Assembly: GCF_016919725.2 (NCBI RefSeq)
Contig: NZ_JAJERH010000028.1
Span: 1-48,161, forward strand
Direction: 5' to 3'
DNA from: Virgibacillus sp. AGTR
Lineage (GTDB): Bacteria; Bacillota; Bacilli; Bacillales; Amphibacillaceae
DNA: 48,161 nucleotides
Below the pieces are notes generated by a model that saw only the letters and a list, made by a program, of their open reading frames with translations, was not told the DNA's origin and ran no database searches. A program made the position numbers and the translations under genes. Positions 4,279 to 39,870 of this stretch are shown here, one piece after another. Numbering within the stretch: the first letter of the stretch is position 1; each line of letters starts with the position of its first letter.

Positions 4279-4995
4279 TTATTCTGTCTCGCAGCCTTCG
4301 TCTGTGCAATAGGTCGTTTTTGAGGATTTAGGGTTTAGTGATTTTAATTTGCTTTCTTGTTGCTCTTCTTCCCATACTTGTTCAAGTACTTCCGCAAATA
4401 CTTCCTGTGGCTGTGCTCCTGAAAGGGCGTACTTTTCATTAAACACAAAAAAGGGTACACCCTGCACACCAATTTGTCGGGCTTGTTCCTCATCTGCGCG
4501 CACATGAATCGCGTAATCATCTACTTTAAGCAACGTTGTAACCGCATTTTCATCCAAGCCCACGTCAATCGCAAGCGCAATTAATGTTTCATAATCACTA
4601 ATTAACTTTGACTCTGTAAAGTAAGCATGCATCAAGCGTTCTGCCATTTCTATACCTTTTCCTTGTTGTTCCGCATATTTTGCAATACGATGAGCGTCAA
4701 AAGTATTGGTATGTTGCATCGTATCAAAATGATAGGTTAAACCAACTTCAGCCGCTTGCTTTCCAACACTCTCATTCATTTGCTTCGCTTGTTCTATCGA
4801 CATTCCTTTTTTTTCTGATAGATATTCATGAATTGATTTATTAGGAGTTGCTTCGGTATTTGGATCCAGTTCATAGCTTTTAAACTCAAGTATTATTTGA
4901 TTTTCATGTGGAAAAGTTTTCATTGCATTTTCTAGTCTTCTTTTTCCAATATAACAAAAAGGGCATACAAAATCCGACCAAACTTCGATTTTCAT
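4279..4995 (-). CDS. DsbA family thiol oxidoreductase (FrnE-like)
   Basis: Thioredoxin-fold protein of the DsbA/FrnE group, 238 residues. The redox motif CPFC is at residues 11-14 in VWSDFVCPFCYIGKRR, and the cis-proline loop is seen as GVQGVPFFVFN. The insert between these is helical, as in the family. There is no signal peptide, so it probably acts in the cytoplasm as a disulfide isomerase or oxidoreductase, possibly during thiol stress. An extra Cys pair near the C-terminus (YCTDEGC) could form a second redox or metal site. GAGGTG precedes the ATG. It appears to be transcribed alone and is followed by a stem-loop. Confidence 0.88.
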   Translation of the reverse strand: MKIEVWSDFVCPFCYIGKRRLENAMKTFPHENQIILEFKSYELDPNTEATPNKSIHEYLSEKKGMSIEQAKQMNESVGKQAAEVGLTYHFDTMQHTNTFDAHRIAKYAEQQGKGIEMAERLMHAYFTESKLISDYETLIALAIDVGLDENAVTTLLKVDDYAIHVRADEEQARQIGVQGVPFFVFNEKYALSGAQPQEVFAEVLEQVWEEEQQESKLKSLNPKSSKTTYCTDEGCETE

Positions 4996-33065: not shown

Positions 33066-33097
33066 TCTCCTCCGTCCTTTCCTGCATACAAAACTTT

Positions 33098-33286
33098 AAA
33101 TAAAGTGAAACTTCAATCTGTGGGGTTTTGTTTATTCCCCACTGATTGTTAGTACCACAAGGGTATGAGCTAAAGGCCCTAGAACCAATCGGACATTTAC
33201 TGGCAGTCGACCCTACATCTACTCATATTGGTTTCACTTTTTGCTTGGAGTGTGGTGTCTTACTGCCAGTTATATGCGGGATAAAA
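33098..33286. repeat. Interspersed repeat family D, full copy (hairpin variant)
   Basis: AAAGTGAAACTTCAATCTG, then the hairpin variant TGGGGTTTTGTTTATTCCCCA, CCAATCGGACATTTACTGGCAG, and the end TTACTGCCAGTTATATGCGG-GATAAA. A degenerate piece of the alternative insert (GGTGGCAACGCCTTTATAACC) follows at 33291-33340. Confidence 0.8.
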
Positions 33287-33340: not shown

Positions 33341-33858
33341 TAAACTAAATTAATTACTGACAGCTATCCCTTCAATTTCAAAATGTTGCTTTGGAGGTAA
33401 GGGATATGGTCAATAATTCTATCATATACTAGGATTATAGCGATATAATAAAAATAGCACAAATTAGCTTGGATAAGAAGTTTTACTACTAAAATTGTAT
33501 TAAATCGCAATACGGATTTATTGTTTATGCCTTTACTAATCGTATTCATTAAACAAGTACGTTTCCTTAAGTGTTGCAGAATTGGATTGCTTAAAATTCA
33601 TCTTTAGCTGTTCACCATTGCTATTACTTCTCTATAGATCTGGATTCCATAGCATTTTGTATTTCAATTGAAAATAGTATTGGCTTTGCTTTATTTGAAG
33701 TATGTAGTTACCTACACGGGGTAGAATGGAAGATGAATAAAGTGAAACTTCAATCTGTGGGGGTTTTACTGCTAGTTATATAATAAATGAATGATCGTTT
33801 ACGGAGAAAAGTTAGGTATTCATCGTAAAATCTACCATTACACAAAACTCTCTCATTC
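33341..33858. other. Gene-free stretch with a short family D copy
   Basis: No credible coding frame on either strand and no clear promoter. A short, end-joined family D copy lies at 33736-33786 (GTGAAACTTCAATCTGTGGGGG then TTTTACTGCTAGTTATAT). The rest is AT-rich and unexplained. Confidence 0.5.
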
Positions 33859-34170
33859 TCATGAGCTCCCTTCCCTTAAAACGCGAATAACTTCTTCAAA
33901 CCCCTCTCTACTTTCCGCCAATCCTACATCAAGCTCGGAAATGATCTCATCGATCTTGGCTGATTCAACTTTCTCATTCCTATCGCCCCTATACAGGCCA
34001 CTATCTAGTTTCATGAACATATACGTTATGATCAATTGAAGTGTACGATCTTCTAAAAAAATAAAGCTATTATTCTGATCCTCCCTGTTTACACTTAACT
34101 CTTCCATGTTCTCTTTTATATACTGTTGAAGAAATCGTTTAAAATGTGTATGCATTTCTTGATTATTCAC
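33859..34170 (-). CDS. Hypothetical protein, last gene of the sigma-K-type operon
   Basis: I do not recognise this protein of about 103 residues. It is mostly charged helix, without membrane segment or Cys. The frame opens at ATG 34179, but that codon overlaps AAGGGG. A GTG at 34170 (VNNQEMHTHF) stands 9 bases after AAGGGG and is the likelier start. It overlaps the end of the upstream gene by 8 bases, so it is translated in the same operon as the next two genes on the minus strand, which begins at the sigma-K-like promoter at 35.5 kb. Confidence 0.6.
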   Translation of the reverse strand: MNNQEMHTHFKRFLQQYIKENMEELSVNREDQNNSFIFLEDRTLQLIITYMFMKLDSGLYRGDRNEKVESAKIDEIISELDVGLAESREGFEEVIRVLREGSS

Positions 34171-34732
34171 TTTCATCATCCCCTTCTACCTTACCACTAA
34201 TATTTATATGGTTAAGAGCCTCCATCCCACCTTCGATTTCATCACCATAAGTGAATCCCATCATACTTCCTGTGTAGGAGGATTGCGGATTCCACTTCAC
34301 TTGAAAATTTGCGAATGACAGCGTCTCTGTTGGATTTAATGCTTGTGATTGAATCGGCTTAAGCCAAAATTCTTGTTTATCGGTAGGGTCATTTATTCGC
34401 TCCCATGCATTGGCTAATTTCATTTTCTGCTTTGAGTCCTTATATACATATTTTCCTGAAAAGTCAAACACATTATTAGGAGATACCTTTAGACAAATAT
34501 AGAGATTAGTTAACGGTTTCTCTCCCACATTTTGAATATGATACGACCCAAGTGCAAAATTATCGAATCCCATTTCATGTTGAACATTTAAGGAATAGGT
34601 AAAATAACTAATAACGCGCAAGTCTACATTTTTCTTTGCCTCGGAAGCCAACCATTTTATTTCCTTCATGTATGAATGATTCATTTCTTTCCATTCCGTA
34701 ATCAGCTGCCTTACTTCTTCTATGCTCCCCAA
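34163..34732 (-). CDS. Hypothetical protein of the sigma-K-type operon
   Basis: Unrecognised protein of about 189 residues. The N-terminal part is a charged helix, and the rest is predicted beta-rich (YHIQNVGEKPLTNLYICLKV..., FSGKYVYKD, LSFANFQVKWNPQ). The frame is open from a TTG at 34747, but GGAGGTG (34740-34746) follows that codon and lies 6 bases before a second TTG at 34732, which is chosen as the start. It lies between the Cys-rich gene and the small gene at 33859. A role in the spore surface is inferred only from the operon promoter. Confidence 0.6.
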   Translation of the reverse strand: MGSIEEVRQLITEWKEMNHSYMKEIKWLASEAKKNVDLRVISYFTYSLNVQHEMGFDNFALGSYHIQNVGEKPLTNLYICLKVSPNNVFDFSGKYVYKDSKQKMKLANAWERINDPTDKQEFWLKPIQSQALNPTETLSFANFQVKWNPQSSYTGSMMGFTYGDEIEGGMEALNHINISGKVEGDDESE

Positions 34733-34754
34733 TCCGATCACCTCCAAAAAAGTT

Positions 34755-34796: not shown

Positions 34797-35471
34797 TTAA
34801 TCGTTATCACCATCATCATTGTTTGGAAACACTACTGGACACTGCGGCGGAATTGTTGGTGCAGGGCATGGAGGAATTGGAAGCATATCTCTCGGTTCAC
34901 AGAATTCAGCAACAATTTCAAGTGTCACATCAAATGTTGATTGAATGCTTTGACATAAACGAACAGTAAGCGTGACATCAAGCTCATTAGGATGCATTGT
35001 ATCGTCACAACAAGCTGTACATACAAAGCAATCTAAATCTGTGTAACTTACATCAATATCTGTTCCTTCTGGTGCACAAAGAATCACTTGTTCACAACGA
35101 GTGAATTCTGCCTCCGTTACCTCTACTGTCCCTCCTCCAAGTTCTGGTATTAGATCAACAAAAACAGTTACTTCAAAGTTTTTACGAATGTTTACCAGTT
35201 GTAAGGTTACCTCCGTGCCATCAATGACTAACTCCTGATCTACTCGATCCAAAATGACAATTGGCTCCATAGCAGCAGGCGTAACTGTACATGTTACTGT
35301 ATCGATATCGATATCCTCACATGTTAATTGCTCCCCAGTATTTGGATTATGCGGCAATTCCAAATCCATTAGGTTTAAATCAAATGTTGCTTCATTAAGA
35401 ATCCAGTCATATACCTTCTCTGTATTAATACATAGGAGTTCCTGACCTCCAGATAAATTATTTGCTTGCAT
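34797..35471 (-). CDS. Cys-rich beta-structured protein, probable spore-surface component
   Basis: I do not recognise the family with certainty. The protein has about 224 residues and roughly a dozen Cys (CINTEKVYDWIL near the N-terminus, FVCTACCDD in the middle, a Pro/Cys tail with PPCPAPTIPPQCP). It is acidic and predicted beta-rich, and ends in an Asp/Asn run. The LCINTEKVYDWI opening resembles proteins with SPOCS/DUF3794-type modules. There is no signal peptide. The frame is open from GTG 35483, but GGAGGTG overlaps it, so ATG 35471 is used. A sigma-K-type promoter lies about 42 bases upstream, which points to late mother-cell expression and a coat or exosporium role. Confidence 0.6.
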   Translation of the reverse strand: MQANNLSGGQELLCINTEKVYDWILNEATFDLNLMDLELPHNPNTGEQLTCEDIDIDTVTCTVTPAAMEPIVILDRVDQELVIDGTEVTLQLVNIRKNFEVTVFVDLIPELGGGTVEVTEAEFTRCEQVILCAPEGTDIDVSYTDLDCFVCTACCDDTMHPNELDVTLTVRLCQSIQSTFDVTLEIVAEFCEPRDMLPIPPCPAPTIPPQCPVVFPNNDDGDND

Positions 35472-35512
35472 TATTGCAAACACCTCCGAATAAGATTAAT
35501 TTCTTTCACTGG

Positions 35513-35541: not shown

Positions 35542-35775
35542 TAGTGATATAGCGGAATTGTCATGATAATCGTGGATTTAGGTAAATGTCATAATCATAA
35601 CGGCATCCGTACAATTTAAACATCAAATGTGACTGTATTTAGCTTAAATCGTGAAAGTTGTGCATAAAATGAGTATGTCAAAACAATTATGTTCTGCTAT
35701 TTCAAAAATGCACATTTGTCACATATTGATGTTTCATAAATAGTATATTAATGTGCTGTAAAAGGGTGAATGAAA

Positions 35776-36801
35776 ATGTATCGATATGAACTGTATAATG
35801 TTGATGATATTGATCAATTAAAAAAGGAGCTCGATGCCTACAAACAAACAGTTAGAGCCATGACAGAGGGAAAATTATTTGAAGATTATTTTAAAACGAA
35901 AGATGACTTTTACGATTTAAAGATGAAAATTTTTGAATTAGAAGGAGACATGAAGGCTATGGAAAATAATTATCAAGAAGAAATTTCCAATCATCAAATG
36001 GAAGAGCAGCATCTCACTAACCAGCTTACATCTATTACTGATTTCTTACAGCAATTAAGGCAAGACGCACGACTGATTAAACAGCAATTTGAACAACTGC
36101 CATTTGTCGAGCTTTCGGAAAAGATAAATCAATTAATAAGTAACCAAAACACAAATGCCATGGAACAGAAAATAGAACTGGAACGTTTGAAAGAAGAAAT
36201 CTCGCAAATCAAAGAATTATTGAAGCCTAAGGAGGATAATACTGCTAAAAATAATCGTTCAGCTAAGAGGTCAGACTACAAACAATTACAGGGCATACTA
36301 CAATTCCCCAACAATGTCGAGCAACCCTTAAACAAAAAAAAAAATAACCAAGTAAATAGACAGCACTATAGTCGTACAAAACCAAACAACGAAAAATCTT
36401 ATTATACACATGCTAACTCACAGGAATCTGAAACAATATCCATGAGTAAGGCAAAGAAGACGTACCGAAATGCTCAATACGAATTAAATAAAAATATTAT
36501 TACTCGCACAGTAACTCCCAAAAATAAATCACAAGAGCAAAAAGAAGAAAGCCTCGATACAGACAGCACCTTACCTACTACTGAAGACACTACTCCTGTT
36601 GAAAATAATCTATCCATTGAAAATAACGTAACAGAAGAAAATATACCAAGTACGGAAATAGAAAAAGAGCCACTAGAAAGTATTACAGAATCCAGTGAAG
36701 AAATGCCAATAGAGGCAACGAAAAGTAACTCAGAGCAATCAGACGAATCAACTAAAAAATCAGACTTCACTTCACTTCTTTCCATTTTCAAAAGAGGGTG
36801 A
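35776..36801 (+). CDS. Coiled-coil protein with disordered C-terminal half
   Basis: Unrecognised protein of about 341 residues. Residues 10-155 are strongly helical with heptad-like spacing (several long E/K/Q/L stretches), predicted coiled coil. After about 160 it turns basic and Asn/Lys/Gln-rich, then from about 255 very acidic and Thr/Ser/Glu-rich, and ends in a short hydrophobic-basic motif LLSIFKRG. There is no signal or membrane segment. The ATG at 35770 is too close to AAGGG; the ATG at 35776 (MYRYELYNV) has better spacing. It is one base from the JAMM protease gene, so they are coupled. Its shape suggests a scaffold or morphogenetic protein; function unknown. Confidence 0.65.
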   Translation: MYRYELYNVDDIDQLKKELDAYKQTVRAMTEGKLFEDYFKTKDDFYDLKMKIFELEGDMKAMENNYQEEISNHQMEEQHLTNQLTSITDFLQQLRQDARLIKQQFEQLPFVELSEKINQLISNQNTNAMEQKIELERLKEEISQIKELLKPKEDNTAKNNRSAKRSDYKQLQGILQFPNNVEQPLNKKKNNQVNRQHYSRTKPNNEKSYYTHANSQESETISMSKAKKTYRNAQYELNKNIITRTVTPKNKSQEQKEESLDTDSTLPTTEDTTPVENNLSIENNVTEENIPSTEIEKEPLESITESSEEMPIEATKSNSEQSDESTKKSDFTSLLSIFKRG

Positions 36802-36802
36802 G

Positions 36803-37219
36803 ATGAACTGTAAGCAGATCATTATCCCACTATCCATACACAATCAAATGGTTGAACACGGCGTCTCAACCTTACCCTATGAGGCATGTGGCTTGTTAGC
36901 AGGAAATCAGACGAACGTTCAATCTATTTGGCAATTAAAAAATGAATGTAAGTCTGATAGACGTTTTTTTGTAAGTAAGCATAATGTTGAACGTACGTTG
37001 AACAGAATTAATGAAGAAAAGCAAGATGTTTTAGCTATCTATCATTCTCACCCTTTTACAGCACCAATACCTTCCACATTAGATATGATTAACCACCCCG
37101 ATACCGATATAAAAATGATCATTATATCCTTTAAAAGAGGTTCTCCCACTGTGAGATGGTATCGAATACGTGATACGAACTATGAAGAATGCCTTTTTCG
37201 CATAGAATCCTCACGATAG
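36803..37219 (+). CDS. JAMM/Prok-JAB (M67-type) metalloprotease
   Basis: Zinc isopeptidase-fold protein of 138 residues with a complete JAMM site: Glu27 (LPYEACGLLAG), His81 and His83 (YHSHP), then Ser91 and Asp94 (STLDM), which fits E-xn-HSHP-x7-SxxD. Prokaryotic relatives cleave after Gly-Gly in ThiS/MoaD-like or ubiquitin-like partners, or process sulfur-carrier and secreted precursors. No E1-like or beta-grasp gene is adjacent. The start (ATG 36803, AGAGGGTG upstream) is 1 base after the coiled-coil gene. A 47-codon gene for a peptide with a GGCCG tail follows 58 bases later, and is a possible substrate. Confidence 0.85.
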   Translation: MNCKQIIIPLSIHNQMVEHGVSTLPYEACGLLAGNQTNVQSIWQLKNECKSDRRFFVSKHNVERTLNRINEEKQDVLAIYHSHPFTAPIPSTLDMINHPDTDIKMIIISFKRGSPTVRWYRIRDTNYEECLFRIESSR

Positions 37220-37277
37220 CCCGACCATTCCCACAAAATAATACTATAATACATTATAAAACCTAAGGAGTTGAGAT

Positions 37278-37421
37278 ATGTTGAAGGCAAAAGAAATAAA
37301 GAAAGCAAAAAGCAGCTATAAAAAATTAAAGACGCCAACGAAGCCAATTGTATTAAATTCATCTTCATCAATTAAAAGAGGAATGTTTCGAAGAGGCGGC
37401 TGTTGCGGTAAAATAAAATAA
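37278..37421 (+). CDS. 47-residue basic mini-protein with Gly-Gly-Cys-Cys-Gly tail
   Basis: A small gene with a good ribosome binding site (AAGGAG, 7 bases before the ATG). The peptide begins MLKAKEIKKAKSSYKK, has a TPTKPIVLNSSSSIKR middle, and ends RRGGCCGKIK. It is very basic, with no predicted fold large enough to be a beta-grasp ubiquitin-like domain. The Gly-Gly followed by Cys-Cys is close to the C-terminus, 58 bases downstream of a JAMM protease gene on the same strand. It could be a protease substrate, or a small spore-coat protein cross-linked through its Cys pair. I know of no named family for it. Confidence 0.65.
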   Translation: MLKAKEIKKAKSSYKKLKTPTKPIVLNSSSSIKRGMFRRGGCCGKIK

Positions 37422-37882: not shown

Positions 37883-38073
37883 TAAATAAAGTGAACCCTC
37901 CATCCGTGGGGGTTTTATTTATCCCCCACGGATTGTTCGTACCAAAAGGGTATGACCTAAAGGCCTTTGAACCAATCGGACATGTACTGGCAGTCGACCC
38001 TCCACTTACCAATAGTGGTTTTCCTTTATTGCCTGAAGCGGGGGTCTTACTGCCAGTTATAGGTGGGATAAAT
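37883..38073. repeat. Interspersed repeat family D, full copy (hairpin variant)
   Basis: AAATAAAGTGAACCCTCC, then the perfect hairpin CCGTGGGGG-TTTTATTTAT-CCCCCACGG, the core CCAATCGGACATGTACTGGCAG, and the end TTACTGCCAGTTATAGGTGG-GATAAA. It is the best-preserved hairpin variant in the window. It is read through in frame by the open frame from 37825, which is therefore artefactual in this part. Confidence 0.8.
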
Positions 38074-38256: not shown

Positions 38257-38961
38257 ATGTCCTCTAAATGTTTCAAAAACGTTGTAGTGGTTGACAAAAA
38301 GAAAAAGCACAAACCACAAAAACATCATTCATGCTGTAAACGTGAAACTTGTAAATGTAATTTCAAGAAACCAGAACCTAAAGTAACTAAACTAAACAGT
38401 GATTGTTTCGTAGTGAATTCCTTGGTAGGTTCAAAAACCGTTCAGAAGGTAGCAGAGACAACACTTCCGATCACATTATTCCCTAACTTACCTGTTATAG
38501 GTGATATTGTGTCAATTACTGTTGTACCAGATTTAGATAATATTACGCAAAACGCTAGAATAATCAAGGATAAAGTAGTAAATATTGGCGTTGTACCAGC
38601 AACTATTTCTGTCTCGATTGCCGGTGTAGCTTTACCTGACGTTCTTACTACAACTATCCCATTCCAAGCGCATACGGACTTCCCAGGAGCTTGTCCACAG
38701 GATATGCTACAGGAAACGCCACTTGAAGTCGAAGGCATCTTCACGCAACCAGGAGTTGAAGTTGTCGATGCCACTGGTACAGGACTTATCGAAGGTATAT
38801 TAGTAAAGATTGTATTACGTACAACGATTACCGTTACACGCCAGGTCATCAAAGATCCGGAGGGGAACTTCTGTGATGTAGATCCTAATCGCTGCGAGAA
38901 AACAGCTACTCCTCCATCATTTATGCTACCAACACCACCAAATGGTAATGGAGGAGGCTAA
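38257..38961 (+). CDS. SPOCS (DUF3794)-like protein with Cys/His/Lys-rich N-terminus
   Basis: Protein of 234 residues. The N-terminus is rich in Lys, His and Cys (KKKKHKPQKHHSCCKRETCKC), suited to cross-linking or metal binding. The body has the pattern of the SPOCS/DUF3794 domain of spore coat and assembly proteins: ARIIKDKVVNIGVVPATISV, then IPFQAHTDFPGACPQDM, then a late run of beta strands (ILVKIVLRTTITVTRQV). It ends in a Pro/Gly/Asn tail. An upstream in-frame ATG at 37825 is rejected because the intervening frame is a family D repeat; ATG 38257 has AAAGGAGG upstream. Probably a spore-surface protein; the assignment to DUF3794 rests on pattern only. Confidence 0.7.
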   Translation: MSSKCFKNVVVVDKKKKHKPQKHHSCCKRETCKCNFKKPEPKVTKLNSDCFVVNSLVGSKTVQKVAETTLPITLFPNLPVIGDIVSITVVPDLDNITQNARIIKDKVVNIGVVPATISVSIAGVALPDVLTTTIPFQAHTDFPGACPQDMLQETPLEVEGIFTQPGVEVVDATGTGLIEGILVKIVLRTTITVTRQVIKDPEGNFCDVDPNRCEKTATPPSFMLPTPPNGNGGG

Positions 38962-39069: not shown

Positions 39070-39346
39070 ATAACCATGAATACTAGCAATGATGAAGAGT
39101 AGTAATCTAATCGAACACAGAAGAGAGCTGATGGCTGGTGAGAATCAGTGTGCTTCATTAGATGAATGGACTTCTGAGCTTCCAAACCGAACCATACGTG
39201 CAGTAGGCTTTGGCGAATTAATCTCATCGTTATCTGAGATACATATATGAAGCTACGTAAAGCTTGATATTGCTAAAGTGAGCTGTATTTCAGCTAATAA
39301 AGGTGGTACCACGGTCCCTCGTCCTTTGTCGGATGAGGGACTTTTT
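39070..39346 (+). promoter_or_regulatory. T-box riboswitch 1 of the trp operon (Trp specifier)
   Basis: tRNA-sensing leader element. Stem I features are AGAGAGCTGATGG, the GGTGAGAATCAG distal region, and GAATGGACTT with the specifier TGG at 39167-39169 (Trp). The antiterminator bulge sequence is AATAAAGGTGGTACCACGG (39296-39314). The terminator is GTCCCTCgTCC paired with GGAtGAGGGAC (39314-39341), then TTTTT. Uncharged tRNA-Trp should permit readthrough. The 5' boundary is approximate. Confidence 0.92.
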
Positions 39347-39379
39347 GCATTTAAAATGGAAAACTGCTGTTGAAAAGTA

Positions 39380-39688
39380 AATAGAATGGAAATCGTTGCG
39401 TAAGAGAAGTAAGCATTGTAAAAGCATTAAAGAGAGCTAGCGGTGGTGGGATGCTAGTATGTGGAACTGTGCTGAATGGACTTACAAGAGGCCTCCTGAA
39501 CAGAAGTAGGGATGCACGGAGCTCCGCCGTTATACGGATAGAATATCGGATCAAGCATTTCAATTTTTCGAAAGCATTTTCCCGTATTCGAATAAAGATA
39601 AAAAGTCTACACTTTTTAACAGAGGTGGCACCGCGGTCCCCTATCGTCCTCTATAAACACAAATCATGTGTTTATAGAGGATTTTTTT
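39380..39688 (+). promoter_or_regulatory. T-box riboswitch 2 of the trp operon (Trp specifier)
   Basis: A second, complete T-box directly after the first. Stem I: AGAGAGCTAGCGGTGGTGGG and GAATGGACTT with the specifier TGG at 39477-39479. The T-box motif is AACAGAGGTGGCACCGCGG (39618-39636). The terminator is a perfect 15-base stem, TCCTCTATAAACACA paired with TGTGTTTATAGAGGA (39647-39681), then seven Ts. It differs from box 1 outside the conserved parts, so it is not a recent duplicate. Confidence 0.93.
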
Positions 39689-39870
39689 ATAGTCTAGGAA
39701 AGTATAAAATTTGTCCATGTGGTGTTGAGCCATGTCCAGCTCCAGTACCCAGAAACTAGGCGACTCGCCCTAAGCTAAGTCATCATCAGCTCGTAAGCTC
39801 ACCGTGATTCCTTTATCTCGGTTGACTCACTCCAGTCGCTACGTTTCTAATTGAGCGCTTACGCTTTTGT
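39689..39870 (+). repeat. Interspersed repeat family A, copy 4, in the trp leader
   Basis: Begins ATAGTCTAGGAAAGTATAAA at the base after the U-run of T-box 2. It continues GGTGTTGAGCCATGTCCAGC, GGCGACTCGCCC, CTCACCGTGATTCCTTTATC and GAGCGCTTACGCTTTTG. It lies between the regulatory terminator and trpE, so readthrough mRNA must carry it. Confidence 0.85.

Follow-up and report, generated by a model that had tools for sequence, protein, structure and literature searches.

Mec+ of Mycobacterium is a JAMM enzyme that cuts between Gly-Gly and the cysteine of CysO-Cys. In the sections of PMC6043591 that were available, JAMM enzymes are presented as mainly known for the removal of ubiquitin-like proteins, with many prokaryotic members lacking a known role, and CsRpn11 is described as trimming the CsUb precursor of Caldiarchaeum after Gly-Gly with removal of nine residues (PMC6043591). 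For Bacillus megaterium, the available part of a further study assigns BMQ_0737 to the outermost spore layers by microscopy (PMC4656864). Here we describe a JAMM gene that lies between genes for a coiled-coil (CC) protein and a short basic mini-protein, close to a BMQ_0737-family gene. The window, i.e., the whole stretch of Virgibacillus DNA that was analysed, comprises 48,161 nucleotides.

The locus and its predicted JAMM protease

The features considered are as follows (strand in parentheses).

33859..34179 (-): neighbour S106, a 106-aa protein, function unknown
34163..34747 (-): neighbour S194, a 194-aa protein, function unknown, conserved in cluster
34797..35483 (-): neighbour, BMQ_0737-family morphogenetic spore coat protein (NCBIfam NF052457)
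35703..35769 (+): promoter block of the CC gene, limits approximate, GCACATTTGTCAC...TTCATAAATAGTATATTAATGTGC, with nested dyads
35776..36801 (+): CC (coiled-coil) protein gene, first of three, an ORF whose start may be 35770
36803..37219 (+): JAMM/MPN+ metalloprotease gene, 138 aa, with E27, H81, H83, S91 and D94
37220..37277 (+): JAMM-to-mini-protein spacer, promoter-like block AATACTATAATA, then AAGGAG
37278..37421 (+): mini-protein gene, 47 aa, basic, with a C-terminal GGCC pair

The initial annotation had placed the CC, JAMM and mini-protein ORFs in a row and given the last of them 47 residues and the tail RRGGCCGKIK; the three ORFs exist, and coordinates, length and tail were confirmed. 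Two candidate ATGs, at 35770 and 35776, share the CC stop at 36801, and since the second is better placed behind AAAGGGTGA, the start at 35776 assigned previously is probably right. The JAMM ORF starts one base past the CC stop codon, and AAGGAG precedes the ATG of the mini-protein. Neither the CC protein nor S106 has a Pfam or NCBIfam match above cut-off, and searches of the same collections returned no match for the mini-protein and no family match for S194.

The JAMM protein matches Pfam PF14464 (Prok-JAB; 51.8 bits, 9e-14, cut-off 25). Its complete residue set stands at the positions claimed for it earlier, and of 125 aligned relatives free of internal stops, 124 retain all five residues. 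The sole exception, L061 (genome G121), in which E27 is replaced by D and H81 by L, is possibly inactive; two mini-proteins adjoin it. The AlphaFold2 model has a mean pLDDT of 92.8 and is similar to the structures of 2kks, BRCC36 and Pyrococcus JAMM1, with 2kks as the top Foldseek hit (E 3.8e-10), followed by 5cw3 and the JAMM1 entries 5ld9/5lda (5lda E 1.4e-9). The nearest curated model, desampylase NF041370 (6.5e-13), is matched with 48.7 bits, below its cut-off of 130. Profile, motif and modelled fold thus identify the protein as a predicted JAMM, and by score it is no desampylase. In the record of Cytobacillus spongiae (L300), the JAMM carries the name M67 family metallopeptidase; for the mini-protein ORF (4859-4993) the gene table, itself known to be incomplete, has no entry.

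The divergent neighbour of the CC gene scores 216.7 bits against NCBIfam NF052457 (3.4e-64, cut-off 71). Across the 84 fetched loci, single-linkage clustering finds a BMQ_0737-like gene in 75, an S194-like one in 69, CC-like proteins (cluster 3) in 39 and S106 homologs in 30. A same-strand upstream ORF of at least 150 aa is present in 70 of 82 loci; 61 of these 70 are very polar, compared with 10% of 389 background ORFs. The CC gene was rejected as a constant third partner, some genera having a BMQ_0737-type gene upstream instead. The coupling of the CC protein to the JAMM, as originally proposed, hence holds as a frequent association and fails as a constant one.

Further features of the window were seen in passing. 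A Cys-rich protein of 230-odd residues, perhaps another coat protein, is encoded 3' of the mini-protein at 38257-38961 and has homologs in 5 of the 84 loci. A dispersed direct repeat joins 33097-33285 and 37883-38072; the two copies share 119 nt at 86% identity as well as flanking pieces, and around 33734-33791 there is part of a third. Two tandem T-box leaders (39080-39654; 131.5 and 118.5 bits, cut-off 93) precede an operon beginning at 39867.

Breadth of the JAMM and mini-protein pairing

Within the window's family, JAMM matches occur in 39 of 159 genomes, decayed copies counted, and a mini-protein profile built from 25 sequences matches in 27 of the 159. JAMM-positive as well are 24 of these 27, the rest being G024 (with a stop in the mini-protein frame), G038 and G068. 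At the level of the order, the JAMM profile finds 53 of 397 genomes, which belong to 25 of 136 genera, and at that of the class it finds 123 of 398, a count that includes another JAMM subfamily. A scan of named genomes with the single protein gave no matches; with the alignment it gave 261, and the 80 best of these relatives were retained.

Pairing was scored with a fixed filter that accepts ORFs of 24-75 aa with a ribosome site, at least 15% K+R and C-x(0-1)-C in the last 25 residues, on the same strand and at most 450 bases from the JAMM; the class-level filter differed in allowing up to 95 aa, 13% K+R and 600 bases. The 127 JAMM loci are those that remained after de-duplication at a JAMM identity of 95%; in some of them the JAMM is partial or a remnant (L064, L067, L068, L169), while L167 and L168, which have no JAMM, were excluded. 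A basic Cys-pair mini-protein lies beside the JAMM in 95 of the 127 distinct loci, as against 22 of 448 control ORFs (other ORFs of at least 100 aa at the same loci), by a filter that was written after the first examples and on loci that are related by descent. Three of the 95 (L067, L068, L169) have a JAMM remnant only. Four additional loci have a mini-protein by eye (L060, L064, L140, L232), in nine it lies at another place of the fetched stretch (L036, L046-L052, L054), and none was seen in 19, i.e., 12 loci of Bacilli (L042, L053, L059, L062, L063, L129, L132, L139, L143, L160, L218, L219) and seven of other or unassigned taxa (L236, L238, L243, L246, L248, L249, L252). In the class-level set, a mini-protein stands by 24 of 27 close JAMMs. 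For JAMMs of the other subfamily, some of them second copies in the same genomes, the filter marks one of 20, which is spurious by eye, the marked sequence being without a Cys-pair tail. Four members of that subfamily (L280, L285, L287, L297), without a mini-protein, are divergent from a gene whose product starts QVGVCGWGD, which we take to be DUF72-like, and in three of the four the gene that then follows presumably encodes a TauE-like transporter.

On a JAMM tree of 159 rows, made by a quick method from only 135 columns, the paired JAMMs form a clade of 136 rows with an SH-aLRT of 96. The mini-protein, whose side differs between families, is downstream in 59 rows, upstream in 52 and farther off in 8, and in 17 none was seen. 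Its side switches once on the tree, which suggests perhaps two arrangements, both of long standing, as opposed to many independent gains. Loci of the Gracilibacillus type, eight or more in number, have the mini-protein kilobases away from the JAMM; at L046-L054, L167 and L168 a second BMQ_0737/CC-like set is nearby, and the mini-protein lies near that end.

Judged from sequence, the pairing is real and extends across many spore-forming bacteria, and the adjacency, conserved over many families, bears out the earlier view that JAMM and mini-protein belong together. Such adjacency is evidence for a shared process and not for an enzyme-substrate relation. The initial annotation had named absence of the mini-protein, or of its GG tail, in relatives that keep the JAMM as evidence against its proposal; this is found in part, in the 17 rows given above and in the many mini-proteins without GG.

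The peptide, its promoter-like sites and the spore setting

The 110 distinct mini-proteins have a median length of 47 aa, with 29% K+R and 3% D+E, and exactly two cysteines in 108 cases. The pair is CC in 67, CGC in 39, CNC in 2, CPC in 1 and CAC in 1, and is followed by a median of four residues. Since the Cys pair was a search criterion, its presence was selected for; the absence of extra cysteines was not. The cysteines are preceded by GG in 57 mini-proteins, by a single Gly in 36 and by another residue in 17, so that at least one Gly is present in 93. By arrangement, GG in this set occurs in 46 of 63 downstream, 10 of 10 far and 1 of 37 upstream mini-proteins; in the class-level listing, read by eye, it occurs in 15 of 22 different sequences, two of which are already within the 110. 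Gly-Gly, initially taken as the signature to look for, is therefore rejected as a general rule, and it is the Cys pair, also a search criterion, that is constant. In the 25-sequence family alignment Gly-Cys-Cys is best conserved, and a KPIVI.SS core is frequent.

In an AlphaFold2 model of a JAMM-mini-protein fusion, the mini-protein part has a pLDDT of about 43-54 and is undocked. The fusion model thus gives no support for the tail docking in the JAMM; its low confidence suggests that the mini-protein is disordered and says nothing against binding.

For the window's species and two that are close to it, all with an intact JAMM, the mini-protein dN/dS is 0.16-0.27 (46-47 codons, few changes); between two JAMM-decayed species it is 0.74, and mixed pairs give 0.22-0.78. 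With 46 codons and few changes, this shift is only a hint that the mini-protein depends on the JAMM. The occurrence in 27 of 159 family genomes together with the low ratios of the first comparison indicates that the ORF is more than a chance reading frame. The mini-protein frame is open beside a JAMM remnant in three genomes, G139 (L068), G140 (L067) and G068 (L169), as well as in G110 (L064), whose JAMM has one stop, and in G038, where the search found no JAMM of this family; G139 has another Prok-JAB match of 43 bits. These five genomes, which keep the mini-protein without an intact JAMM, suggest that it can function, or be retained, independently of this JAMM.

The sigma-K promoter consensus is AC-N14-17-CATAnnnTA. 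Upstream of the BMQ_0737 gene this form occurs in 32 of 35 loci (shuffle mean 1.1, max 5; the shuffles were made on the other-strand reading of the same regions). The sigma-K-type operon that the initial annotation saw adjoining the locus stands in this form, as a divergent BMQ_0737-family coat gene with a sigma-K-like promoter. At the CC gene the strict sigma-K form is present in only 1 of 35 loci. Its promoter block reads AC-N16-AATAGTATA in the window and is strikingly constant across loci: a relaxed form, AC-N15-17-nATAnTATA, is found in 32 of 35 BMQ_0737-CC intergenic regions (shuffle mean 0.7, max 5), and the core AATA[GT]TATATTAAT in 27 of 35 (shuffle 0). The block, with its nested dyads (GCACATT...AATGTGC around TTGATG-TTT-CATAAA), is near letter-perfect across genera. 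Its own genome has one exact site, that of the block itself, and a wider regulon was rejected, as six sites with three mismatches are about equal to the three of the reversed control; one such site was inspected and lies inside an ORF.

The spacers between JAMM and mini-protein contain ATAnnnTA in 46 of 53 distinct cases (shuffle mean 14.0, max 23), AC-N14-17-nATAnnnTA in 22 of 53 (shuffle mean 2.6, max 8) and the strict CATAnnnTA form in 9 of 53 (shuffle mean 0.55, max 3). A SpoIVA match is present in 39 of 39 genomes, all picked for bearing the JAMM. Together with the BMQ_0737 neighbour and the sigma-K-like promoters, this agrees with the spore-assembly setting proposed initially, and a spore-envelope setting of the JAMM-mini-protein locus is well supported by these sequence features.

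Possible roles of the peptide and comparison with known systems

We infer a sigma-K spore-envelope cassette from what the sequences show: a widely kept pair, an active site that is intact, the neighbouring genes and sites that resemble promoters. The core of the cassette would be a dedicated pair, namely a JAMM metalloprotease of small size and a short basic peptide, predicted to be disordered, with no cysteines besides a C-terminal CC or CxC. The cassette would be expressed late, in the mother cell, from the sigma-K-like promoters, and the peptide would enter the outer coat or exosporium beside BMQ_0737-type proteins and become cross-linked via its Cys pair. The JAMM would cleave it at or near the Gly-Cys tail, with the effect of either maturation or a limit on cross-linking. 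That the peptide is such a coat component and at the same time the JAMM substrate is the account we favour, with a confidence somewhat under even. A more specific version, a ubiquitin-free endospore JAMM system in which a Gly-Cys cut frees a Gly carboxylate or an N-terminal Cys pair for covalent outer-coat assembly, is unlikely as it stands.

Nearly as likely as the substrate model is that the peptide cross-links the coat independently and that the JAMM cleaves a different coat protein or an isopeptide bond, the two genes being adjacent because both products are made for the same layer; we regard this as a real, if doubtful, possibility. It would account for the survival of the mini-protein through JAMM decay in five genomes, for its own promoter-like site, for the Gracilibacillus-type mini-proteins that lie apart from the JAMM and for JAMMs that occur without a mini-protein. 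It fits less well with an adjacency that is held, in two arrangements, for these two genes in particular, the CC gene not always being kept, and, weakly, with the apparent relaxation of dN/dS after JAMM loss.

Considerably less probable is a cysteine switch in trans, by which the Cys pair would sit on the JAMM zinc and keep the enzyme inactive until oxidation or mother-cell lysis. A Cys pair more constant than Gly-Gly, in a peptide closely paired with a JAMM whose zinc site is intact, would suit such a role, whereas JAMM-decayed genomes retain the peptide and the fusion model shows no docking.

We give still less credence to the JAMM being a desampylase or Mec+-like enzyme whose SAMP, CysO or ThiS protein is replaced by the peptide. 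CysO-Cys is the substrate of Mec+, and GG before Cys resembles it; the nearest curated model is, moreover, the desampylase, and the near folds include Pyrococcus JAMM1. However, the desampylase score is far from its cut-off, and the peptide is modelled as disordered, with no beta-grasp. No ThiF or ThiS match, these being the two families searched, was obtained on the window's contig (C137); the strong matches of the genome, two for ThiF and two for ThiS, are on other contigs (C138 and C112). On the basis of these two families, an E1/beta-grasp system at the locus was thus rejected, in line with the initial annotation. Mere synteny, with an unrelated small ORF beside the JAMM by chance, can be set aside: the filter was devised after the first examples and the loci share descent, but only 22 of 448 controls and one spurious case among 20 other-subfamily JAMMs pass, and the mini-protein appears to be under purifying selection.

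With these results a large JAMM clade gains a tiny, constant partner not filed before, and the spore envelope as a likely site. If the favoured account is true, this would be a JAMM with a partner that is neither ubiquitin-like nor folded, and it raises the question whether JAMM processing of a peptide without a ubiquitin-like fold is a route to coat cross-linking. Bacillus subtilis has no Prok-JAB match in the control list, which may explain why work on that species missed the pair; among open-licence PMC papers, none on a spore JAMM was found.

Mec+ and CysO differ from the present pair in that CysO is a folded carrier and its Cys comes from biosynthesis, whereas the mini-protein gene itself encodes the Cys pair, and its setting would be the spore coat. 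The divergent neighbour is a member of the BMQ_0737 family (NF052457), the JAMM and the peptide are not, and neither is described in the available part of the BMQ_0737 study (PMC4656864). CsRpn11, as presented in the accessible sections, provides a precedent for a JAMM that cuts a short C-terminal tail past Gly-Gly (PMC6043591); its system, however, comprises a folded ubiquitin and E1/E2/E3 genes, and the search for ThiF and ThiS found no such gene at the window locus. The archaeal JAMM-1 desampylases (PfJAMM1, HvJAMM1; NF041370) are the closest fold class, with 2kks and 5lda, and are likewise small single-domain JAMMs with the full E/HxH/S/D set, but the window JAMM scores far under the desampylase cut-off, and its partner is a short, predicted disordered Cys-pair peptide in place of a beta-grasp SAMP.
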